From: Candidatus Steffania adelgidicola
Lineage (GTDB): Bacteria; Pseudomonadota; Gammaproteobacteria; Enterobacterales; Enterobacteriaceae
Direction of reading: 5' to 3'
DNA length: 64,000 nt
NCBI RefSeq assembly: GCF_020541225.1
Contig: NZ_CP045889.1
Span: 620,001-684,000, forward strand
In this document: one piece after another, positions 23,409 through 41,095 of the stretch
How positions within the stretch are numbered: position 1 is the first letter of the stretch
How the letters are laid out: every line of letters begins with the position of its first letter
Translations under genes and position numbers: made by a program
The notes under the pieces: model-generated
Told to the model about the DNA's origin: nothing
Databases searched by the model: none
The model's input: the letters and a program-made list of their open reading frames with translations, nothing else

Positions 23409-24183
23409 ATAATAGCCTATTAAATATAATTAAAATTAAAATGGCGATGAATGTCAGGAAAAGTGTTGATATATAAAAAATCGTCACTTCCTATTTTTCT
23501 TTGCTCCTCAGTTCCATATTGTTATATAAATCCTCGATTGTGATCTTTTATAGGGCAAGAATACTAGTGAAGGGTGTGGTCGAGGTTAAAGTAACATGAG
23601 GTTTTTCCTCTCGAATTTGTTAACAACCACTCTGAATATCCCTGCTTGATTTGAGACTACTTATCAGCCTCCCCCCTCCATGCTATTGAAATGTGATCAG
23701 GATTCATGGAAGACATACATACTAATCTCTCTGCGAGAGAGTAGCACCATAAAGACAATGAAGTTGATCGTTTGTTTACATGATTTAACGTATAATACCT
23801 TGTATTAGATCATATCTACAGACTGTAGATAACAGTCATGTTTAATCAATTCAAGAGTGGTGTCATAGACGGATTGGTTATCAAATCATCCTTACCTTCT
23901 AATGAAGGGTAAGGGAGTAGAGTGCATGGCTATGTTTGCCTATTAAAGTTCAATATCATCTTAATTCGTATTAAATCGTACTAGTTAGTGTGTCTAACTA
24001 GAAAGTCCATTAAAAAACCCACCCGTATTTTTTTTAAAAAAATCCTATTACCTTTCGGTATGTAACACAGAGTCTTACAATTTATAAGAATTATAGGTAA
24101 TATCGTGACGACCGTAGGTTTTATAAACCTCTGTTACCCCGCGCTGTTTCAATTTTTTAACATCTTATTATTGGACAATATCC
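23409..24183. other. 775-bp non-coding spacer accC-suhB
   Basis: No gene or remnant recognised. An imperfect 10-bp hairpin (CCTTACCTTC, TAAT, GAAGGGTAAGG with one bulge, 23890-23914) lies about 480 bp after accC. A consensus suhB promoter was not evident. Confidence 0.5.
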
Positions 24184-24987
24184 ATGCATCCGATTCTGAA
24201 TATCGCCATTCGCGCGGCGCGAATGGCGGGTAATTTAATTGCTAAATATTATGAAAACCCCGATGCCAGCGATGTCACACAGAAAGGTAACAACGATTTT
24301 GTTACTAACGTTGACCGTGAAGCAAAACGTTTGATTTTTGAAGTTATCCGAAAATCCTATCCAAAACACGGTATTCTCGATAAAGAAAGTAGCAAGCTAA
24401 CTGACGCAGTGACTGACACACAATGGATTATCGATCCACTAAATGGAAAAATTAATTTTACCAAGCGCTTTCCCCACTTTGCTGTTTCTATTGCTGTACG
24501 TATCAAAGAGCGTACAGAAGTTGCCGTGGTTTACGATCCAATGCGAAATGAGCTGTTCACAGCATCTCGCGGTCATGGCGCCCAGCTGAATAGCTACCGT
24601 CTTCGTGTCAGCACGGCACATGATTTAGATGGCAAGATCCTGGCTACAGGGTTTCCTTTTGAACAAAAACAACATGCTAATAGTTATATGACCTTAGTGC
24701 GAAAACTGTTCATTCAGTGTACAGATTTTCGGTGTACCGGCTCTGCAGCGCTAGATCTCGCCTATGTAGCTGCGGGGCGCGTTAACGGTTTTTTTGAAAT
24801 CGGTTTAAAACCTTGGGATTTTTCTAGCGGTGAACTGTTAGTGCGTGAAGCGGGCGGTCTAGTCACTGATTTTGCCGGTTGTAATAATCACTTACGGTCC
24901 GGCAATATTGTAGCTGGTAATCCCCGTGTGGTGAAAGCGCTCTTATTAAGCATGCGCGACGAATTAAGTGAGGTCTTAAGGCAGTGA
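24184..24987 (+). CDS. suhB: SuhB, inositol-monophosphatase-family Nus factor with altered active site
   Basis: SuhB in E. coli is an inositol monophosphatase that also works in the rRNA antitermination complex with NusA, NusB, NusE and NusG. It is 267 aa, the same as E. coli, and collinear throughout (MHPILNIAIRAARMAGNLIAK, PHFAVSIAVRIKERTEVAVV, TGSAALDLAYVAAGRVNGFF, KPWDFSSGELL). The catalytic metal site is changed: Glu67 is Lys (LDKESS in place of TEESG), and DPLDGTTNF reads DPLNGKINF, giving D87N, T89K and T90I. D84 and the D212 motif remain. Loss of phosphatase activity with retention of the scaffold is inferred. nusB is also kept in this window. Confidence 0.95.
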   Translation: MHPILNIAIRAARMAGNLIAKYYENPDASDVTQKGNNDFVTNVDREAKRLIFEVIRKSYPKHGILDKESSKLTDAVTDTQWIIDPLNGKINFTKRFPHFAVSIAVRIKERTEVAVVYDPMRNELFTASRGHGAQLNSYRLRVSTAHDLDGKILATGFPFEQKQHANSYMTLVRKLFIQCTDFRCTGSAALDLAYVAAGRVNGFFEIGLKPWDFSSGELLVREAGGLVTDFAGCNNHLRSGNIVAGNPRVVKALLLSMRDELSEVLRQ

Positions 24988-26275
24988 GTTCTTCAAGAGA
25001 GATGGCGAGGTTCTGTCTAAAAGAGTTGATTTGTCTGATTTAACGATTTGTTGATTTATAGAGGCTGATTCTTAACGATATACTGTGTTTTTTTTCTGTA
25101 TTGTGATAGCTGTTATCTATGGTTTATGTCAAGTTCGGTAGGTTCTGAACGATATCGTTTATAGTACGATATTGGAAAAATTTATCTCAGAAATAGAATC
25201 AGTAAAATTAGACCCACGCTTTAGGTCAGTAATAAACTGGATCCACTATGATAAATGTAGTATATTCTTGCGTGCCACGGAAATTTTATGACGATTAATC
25301 GTAGTTTTTGATGAAAACTAGGTTGTATACTGTACATGGTGTGGGAAATGGATTTTTTTACAAAAAAGATCAATCTGCTAGATATATTTATCGTGCACCC
25401 AATAATCGTTTAAATTTCCAGAAATTCTATAAATTATAGATGTATAAGTTATATTGGATGACATCCACATTATTTCAATAGCGTCATATAATAAATAAGG
25501 TTTTGATTATATAACTCAGTTATTGATTGGAGTGCAAAATAATTTTCATTAAAATGCATATTTGTCTAAATAGCTTTAGATATTTTCCTATATCAAGCCG
25601 CTCTCTTTAGTAGGGCGAATGGTGGAAAGTTATGGGAGATGTTTGCTGAAACTGATATAATAAGCGTTATGTATCTAATGTTATCTCGTATAATTAAGCC
25701 ATATCTAAAGTTGAATGCGTCAGATTCTGTTTGAATATATGGAACACATTTCATATTTATATACAGATAATGGTGTTTATGGATTTAAATTCTTTTTATT
25801 ACTGTTTTTATACCTTGTTGCATATATTGTAGAAATTTAGATTTCACTGCTAGAAAATTAGGCAACAAAATAAAATTTGTTCTATACAATCGCATGGAAT
25901 AAAATATTTATGTATTGAATCGGTTATTCACAGTAGCTTTGGAGATCTATTTAGGTTTTAAAAGCAGATGAAGATATGTCGCTTACTTGAAATTTTCTTT
26001 TGCCTTAGAGCAGATCGGTATCTGGTTATAGAAAGAAATCATAATGGTATATTACTCGGAATTTTGTTTTTATGAGTCATTATTTCTATAAATGAAATTA
26101 AGTGAAGCAGATTAATAGTGTGCGTTCCGACGGATTTACATTTTTATTAAAATTTTTAACCATGGATAATATCCAGCGTTGATCATGTCGAGAAATAAAA
26201 GTAAAAACAATTTTCATCATGAAATAAGAATACATTAGGGATGGTTAAGTTAACCACTATGTGTATTATCAATAG
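24988..26275. other. 1.3 kb non-coding spacer suhB-tRNA-Arg
   Basis: AT-rich sequence, stops in all frames. I recognised no gene, remnant, tRNA or strong terminator. A short inverted repeat (ATATCGT/ACGATAT) occurs near 25160-25182. Confidence 0.5.
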
Positions 26276-26349
26276 TGCATCCGGAAGGATTCGAACCTCC
26301 GACCGCTCGGTTCGTAGCCGAGTACTCTATCCAGCTGAGCTACGGATGC
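26276..26349 (-). tRNA. tRNA-Arg (anticodon ACG)
   Basis: A full cloverleaf on the minus strand: acceptor GCATCCG/CGGATGC, D-arm AGCTCAGCTGGATAGAGT, anticodon loop CTACGAA with ACG, and T-loop TTCGAAT. It closely matches E. coli argVYZQ. The T-stem has one G-T pair. The 3' CCA is not encoded: after discriminator A the gene reads CTA. It follows tRNA-Ser by 7 bp, as in the E. coli csrA-serV-argV cluster, but only one Arg copy remains. Confidence 0.96.
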
Positions 26350-26356
26350 ATCGTTA

Positions 26357-26449
26357 TGGCGGTGAAGGAGGGATTCGAACCCTCGATACAGTTTATGACT
26401 GTATACTCCCTTAGCAGGGGAGCGCCTTTAACCTCTCGGCCACCTCACC
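26357..26449 (-). tRNA. tRNA-Ser (anticodon GCT)
   Basis: Minus-strand class II tRNA with acceptor GGTGAGG/CTTCACC (one G-T pair), anticodon stem-loop CTCCCCTGCTAAGGGAG with GCT, a long variable arm and T-loop GGTTCGAATCC. CCA is encoded. It is homologous to E. coli serV, which also lies next to csrA. Confidence 0.96.
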
Positions 26450-26491
26450 AACGCAAGGGCTATTACAGATACTTAGCACTGCGTATTCGAT

Positions 26492-26519
26492 ATATTACTT
26501 TCTAAGCTTGATAAGTCAA
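26492..26519 (-). promoter_or_regulatory. sigma-70 promoter of the tRNA-Ser/tRNA-Arg unit
   Basis: On the minus strand, TTGACT (26514-26519), a 16-bp spacer and TAATAT (26492-26497) lie about 43 bp upstream of the tRNA-Ser 5' end. Confidence 0.65.
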
Positions 26520-40675: not shown

Positions 40676-41095
40676 CTATTTCCTATTGGGACGAATTTGT
40701 GGAGCAACTTTATCTAGCACTGCATTAATAAACTTATGGCTTTCTTCTGCGCCAAAAGTTTTAGCGAGCTCGATAGCTTCATTGATCGCAACTTTATAAG
40801 GTACATCATGATGTTGACTTAATTCAAATAGTGCAATACGCAATACTGCCCTCTCTACATATCCCAGCTTTTCCAACTGACGAGAGAGATGGGGCACCAT
40901 AAGTGTATCTAATTCCTTAGCATTCGCTGCCGCACCGATATAGAGATCATGGAAATAAGGAATATCCACATCAGACGTATTCTCTTCTGACAAAAAATAA
41001 ATTTCAATATCGGCAATTTCATTATCTGATAATTGCCATGAGTAGAGTGCCTGAAGGGCACATTGACGAGCACGGCGACGAGCAGCTGGTTTCAC
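40676..41095 (-). CDS. nusB: transcription antitermination factor NusB
   Basis: NusB binds boxA RNA with NusE (S10) to protect rRNA transcription from termination. With GTG at 41093-41095 it is 139 aa as in E. coli, reading [22 protein letters not shown]; a GGGGA stands 5 bases upstream. An upstream ATG at 41116 would add seven residues and lacks a ribosome-binding site. [32 protein letters not shown] is conserved in full. In enterics it directly follows ribH; here 1.9 kb intervene. Confidence 0.94.

Follow-up and report, generated by a model that had tools for sequence, protein, structure and literature searches.

A SuhB without its phosphatase site in a reduced, symbiont-like genome

Why would a bacterium with a shrunken, symbiont-like genome keep an intact suhB gene when the phosphatase site of its product is broken? 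We addressed this question for a 64,000-nucleotide stretch of DNA from Candidatus Steffania adelgidicola (referred to as the window in the rest of the paper; contig NZ_CP045889.1, positions 620,001 to 684,000), in which a first-pass annotation made from the sequence alone had proposed that suhB codes for a natural phosphatase-dead Nus factor. To determine whether this proposal holds, we examined the catalytic residues of SuhB in the window and in a large set of small and larger genomes, the selection acting on the gene, and the presence of its partners in rRNA antitermination. The results support the proposal, although the loss of phosphatase activity and the Nus function remain inferred from sequence, and the annotation's setting of reduced symbionts proved too narrow.

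Sequence of SuhB and of its catalytic site

The open reading frame at 24184-24987 (+) codes for a protein of 267 aa without internal stop. It is the only PF00459 match of the 1.37 Mb single-contig genome (E 8.2e-67, over the cut-off), it aligns without gaps to E. coli SuhB (PDB 2qfl and 6ib7) over residues 1-266 with 71% identity, and it falls below the CysQ cut-off (92.7 against 228.8 bits), as expected from a SuhB orthologue rather than from CysQ. The nearest named relatives are Sodalis (80% and 79%), and the genome is the only species of its genus in the collection searched. That the bacterium is a host-restricted symbiont is inferred from its genome size and kinship. Another listed open reading frame of the window, of 76 aa at 26275-26505, overlaps tRNA-Arg (acg) and tRNA-Ser (gct) genes on the other strand and is almost certainly spurious.

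The TEES motif reads DKES (E67K, codon 24382-24384 (+)), and DPLDGTTNF reads DPLNGKINF (codons 87-90 at 24442-24453 (+)), in which D87N lies at 24442-24444, G88 is kept, and T89K and T90I lie at 24448-24453. In contrast, D84, D212, D44 and K34 are kept. By established knowledge of inositol monophosphatases, E67, D84, D87 and D212 hold the Mg2+ ions and T89 helps activate the water. The protein is therefore very probably dead as a phosphatase, by inference and not by assay. Within the window alone, the enrichment of such changes is only suggestive, as 3 of 8 first-shell residues are among 21 changes at 165 columns nearly invariant in relatives (hypergeometric p = 0.066). An AlphaFold2 prediction using 20 close sequences was unusable (pLDDT 36.5) and was discarded. 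The case is carried by the comparison with other genomes and by the CysQ control described below.

Recurrence of ligand loss and its limits

To test whether these changes are special to this genome, we extracted SuhB from 104 small-genome (<2.6 Mb) species, 102 of which belong to the same family as the window genome, and from 115 rows of larger genomes. At least one of the four metal ligands is changed or deleted in 100 of the 104 small-genome sequences (referred to as dead below) and at least two in 96; in the family alone the count is 99 of 102. The four intact small genomes are G036, G063, G051 and G008 (G numbers designate individual genomes of the collection). These counts include one partial sequence (198 aa) and treat deletions at residue 67 as changes, but the numbers with at least one and at least two changes stay 100 and 96 without the latter. 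Of the 115 larger-genome rows, 114 keep all four ligands, the exception being G143 (4.3 Mb, close to Sodalis), which carries E67K. These rows comprise E. coli, 80 named loci of unverified genome size that are the best hits of a search, and 34 genomes of the collection; some genomes are in twice, there are 109 distinct proteins, and the set is biased to close relatives of the window. Seven small family members with a SuhB match (G335, G367, G378, G392, G395, G397 and G423), most of the large family genomes, G366, and G028 (49% complete, SuhB in pieces) are not part of the comparison.

At columns nearly invariant in the larger-genome rows, the 12 catalytic-site positions keep their residue in a mean of 30% of dead sequences, compared to 57% for the rest (permutation p 0.001). 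Interestingly, N91, which sits beside the lost residues, and W81, Y59, Y117, F125, N136, L190, Y194 and E222 are unchanged in 100 of 100 dead sequences. The pair E67K plus D87N occurs in 9 of the 104, the window included.

As a control for general decay we used the paralogue CysQ, which shares the fold and the motif. Among 67 genomes searched, CysQ could be read in 23 (a 24th piece, in G051, was unreadable), and all 23 keep E64, E65, D83, D86, G87, T88 and D205 while being 43-70% identical to E. coli CysQ. Nineteen of these are small genomes with a dead SuhB (43-69% identity) and a twentieth is G143. The loss thus concerns SuhB and not this fold in general, although the window genome itself has no CysQ.

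To estimate how often the site was lost, we scored the dead or alive state on trees. A SuhB tree including 43 of the 104 small-genome sequences needed 8 changes but was poorly supported. For this reason we also used a NusA tree of 61 rows, 55 of which were scored (27 dead and 28 alive). This tree needs 10 changes of state (9-11 over bootstraps), at least 4 of them forced by well-supported branches. Since regain of several ligands is implausible, these are mainly losses.

Reading more of the order showed that a small genome by itself does not explain the loss. All 8 further small genomes of other families in the order are intact (of the two already among the 104, G063 is intact and G080 changed), and of 30 small genomes elsewhere in the class, selected by us by hand, 23 are intact and 7 changed. 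Conversely, reduced genomes are not the only ones to lose the site. Of 29 further large genomes of the order, four of which belong to the window's family, 25 are intact. The four changed are G060 and G085 (one genus of another family, 5.1 and 4.8 Mb, both E67K, D87N and D212E), G068 and G062 (3.5-5.1 Mb for the four), while G092, of the same genus as G068, is intact. Inside the window's family, however, the association with reduced genomes is nearly complete.

Selection, Nus partners and autoregulation

Comparison of the window suhB with five Sodalis-type sequences gave dN of 0.11-0.12 and dS of 1.4-1.8, hence dN/dS of 0.064-0.085, with dS near saturation. The window end branch is much longer than those of the Sodalis rows, so most of this change is in the window line. 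Pairs of dead SuhBs within a genus gave ratios of 0.09-0.51, all below 1.

E. coli SuhB binds the AR2 domain of NusA, and changing K251 and L254 cuts the affinity over a thousandfold (PMC6614801). Both residues are kept in the window. The genome also codes for NusB, at 40697-41080 (-) of the window (660697-661080 of the single contig of the genome; E 1.6e-43, no stops), as the first-pass annotation had noted, and for NusA, matched over 1-494 at 80%. To test whether SuhB and its partners are kept together, we compared 80 genomes. AR2 was not matched in 13 of 17 genomes without SuhB compared to 6 of 63 with it (p 1.4e-7), and NusB was absent, below cut-off or broken in 11 of 17 compared to 0 of 63 (p 1.2e-9). 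By genus, AR2 or NusB was gone in 6 of 7 compared to 4 of 52 (p 3e-5), and beyond this genus count the tests are not corrected for phylogeny. G139, whose NusB is split with stops, and the below-cut-off NusB of one genus (g134) were counted as not intact, whereas G140 and G322, in which the N-terminal part of NusB is missing or out of frame, were counted as intact. Absence of SuhB was judged at E <= 1e-30, except for G134 (1e-20) and for G059 and G082 (1e-3), so weak remnants may be missed. G134, a 1.2 Mb relative, has no SuhB match at its threshold and no NusB over the cut-off while keeping NusA matched over 1-494. G171 (8% contamination) and G361 (190 contigs) lack SuhB while keeping both partners. 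The six genomes with SuhB but no AR2 match fit the report that AR2 is dispensable for SuhB joining the complex (PMC6614801).

The rRNA leader of the window genome contains the boxA TGCTCTTTAAAA 136 nt upstream of 16S (144 nt in E. coli), with one mismatch, and 0 of 200 shuffles gave a match as good. A second 16S-like stretch of the genome, outside the window at 1310572-1312098 of the contig, scores only 428 bits against 1562 for the good copy and is possibly a decaying rRNA gene. We fetched the leaders of 40 of 62 genomes, namely 28 SuhB-bearing, of which 27 were usable (that of G013 had 22 bases), and 12 without SuhB. A boxA within two mismatches was found in 21 of the 27 and in 5 of the 12, so boxA does not vanish in step with SuhB.

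In E. coli, a boxA in the suhB leader lets the Nus complex repress suhB (PMC5725501). Of the 115 larger-genome rows 111 have this boxA within two mismatches, compared to 8 of 103 small-genome leaders (0.1 expected by shuffling). In the window it is eroded (24151-24162 (+), AATTTTTTAACA, compared to AGTTCTTTAACA in Sodalis and CGTTCTTTAACA in E. coli), with four mismatches to the consensus and two to the Sodalis form. The -10 hexamer of relatives, TATACT, reads TACCCC at 24135-24140 (+) in an alignment made by eye, and a promoter scan lists no site there, leaving expression of the gene unproven. The feedback thus seems to be shed along with catalysis in most of these lines. Nevertheless, two relatives with a dead SuhB, G212 and G037, have a perfect boxA 12-mer starting 33 nt before suhB, so the feedback site is kept there.

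A probable Nus factor and its known counterparts

Altogether, the reading that we favor with good, though not full, confidence is that the window gene codes for a SuhB that very probably cannot act as an inositol-phosphate phosphatase, because two of four Mg2+ ligands and the catalytic Thr are replaced, but which is kept under purifying selection as the SuhB subunit of the rRNA antitermination/maturation (Nus) complex with NusA, NusB/E and boxA. A main reason for not being more confident is R184C (codon 24733-24735 (+)). R184 is invariant in the 109 distinct larger-genome proteins but is Cys, Ser or Tyr in 61 of 100 dead sequences, and in E. coli R184I and G173V may abolish RNA polymerase binding and complementation (Wang et al. 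2007). The window also has Arg at position 173 (G in E. coli, S in Sodalis), but this column varies in larger genomes too. The R184 surface may be dispensable here, or the contacts may have changed.

Early decay of suhB by drift, with the active-site changes being part of general erosion, could account for the 21 changes at nearly invariant columns, R184C among them, and for the altered -10 hexamer and leader boxA. We consider it unlikely given the full-length frame, the dN/dS of about 0.07 with most of the path on the window branch, the persistence of near-full-length dead SuhB in smaller genomes (0.3-0.9 Mb), and the intact CysQ sites of the 19 small genomes with dead SuhB (the window genome itself has no CysQ). 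A role outside the Nus complex, such as direct ribosome association, would suit the six genomes that keep SuhB without an AR2 match but appears improbable in view of the association of SuhB with NusB and AR2. Least likely is that the protein still hydrolyses some phosphate ester with a shifted metal site. Although D84 and D212 remain in the window, T89 and T90 are lost too, 76 of the 104 small-genome sequences have lost three or all four ligands (66 if deletions are not counted), and the replacements differ between lineages.

A broader hypothesis, which we regard as somewhat more likely than not, is that turning SuhB into a dedicated, catalytically dead and usually feedback-free Nus factor is, in this family, a near-universal and repeatedly evolved step of genome reduction in host restriction, so that the Nus role is the only selected function of SuhB there. 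The same conversion, including the very pair E67K/D87N, would also have arisen in large genomes of another family. Our literature searches, which left out most subscription journals, listed no report of this parallel loss. SuhB is still treated as an inositol monophosphatase in metabolic models, while in E. coli its main role is in rRNA transcription. A Buchnera model left suhB out as unconnected to biomass (PMC2649895), suhB is listed among ancestrally essential genes of Enterobacteriaceae, with an asterisk for strains that miss the threshold (PMC11481867), and a table row for the aphid groups Calaphidinae + Phyllaphidinae names suhB, which we take to mean gene loss (PMC11188193). Around a hundred natural SuhBs with a broken metal site, mostly in genomes that keep NusB and AR2, are a replicated natural separation of function. 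They provide ready-made alleles for asking which surfaces of SuhB the Nus complex needs and warn against assigning IMPase reactions in symbiont models.

The closest known system is E. coli SuhB, both Nus factor and inositol monophosphatase (NP_417028.1; PDB 2qfl, 6ib7, 6tqn/6tqo), with which the window protein is collinear over its full length and shares K251 and L254, while E67, D87, T89, T90, R184 and G173 are replaced and the -10 hexamer and leader boxA are altered. In phosphatase-deficient E. coli SuhB mutants, by the statements of two papers, catalysis is lost while the suhB phenotype is still rescued. The first-pass annotation had invoked a D87N mutant of this kind, a claim supported in substance by the statements that the activity is not needed for the suhB phenotype (PMC6614801; PMC4807359), although no paper in the library searched mentioned SuhB together with D87N. 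The window protein differs in being natural and in having lost several residues, and its function has been inferred rather than assayed. The SuhBs of G060 and G085 share the E67K and D87N pair but carry D212E in addition and come from large genomes. Finally, pseudophosphatases such as STYX and MK-STYX (PMC8907265) are likewise phosphatase relatives kept without catalysis, but they are eukaryotic and probably belong to an unrelated phosphatase family.
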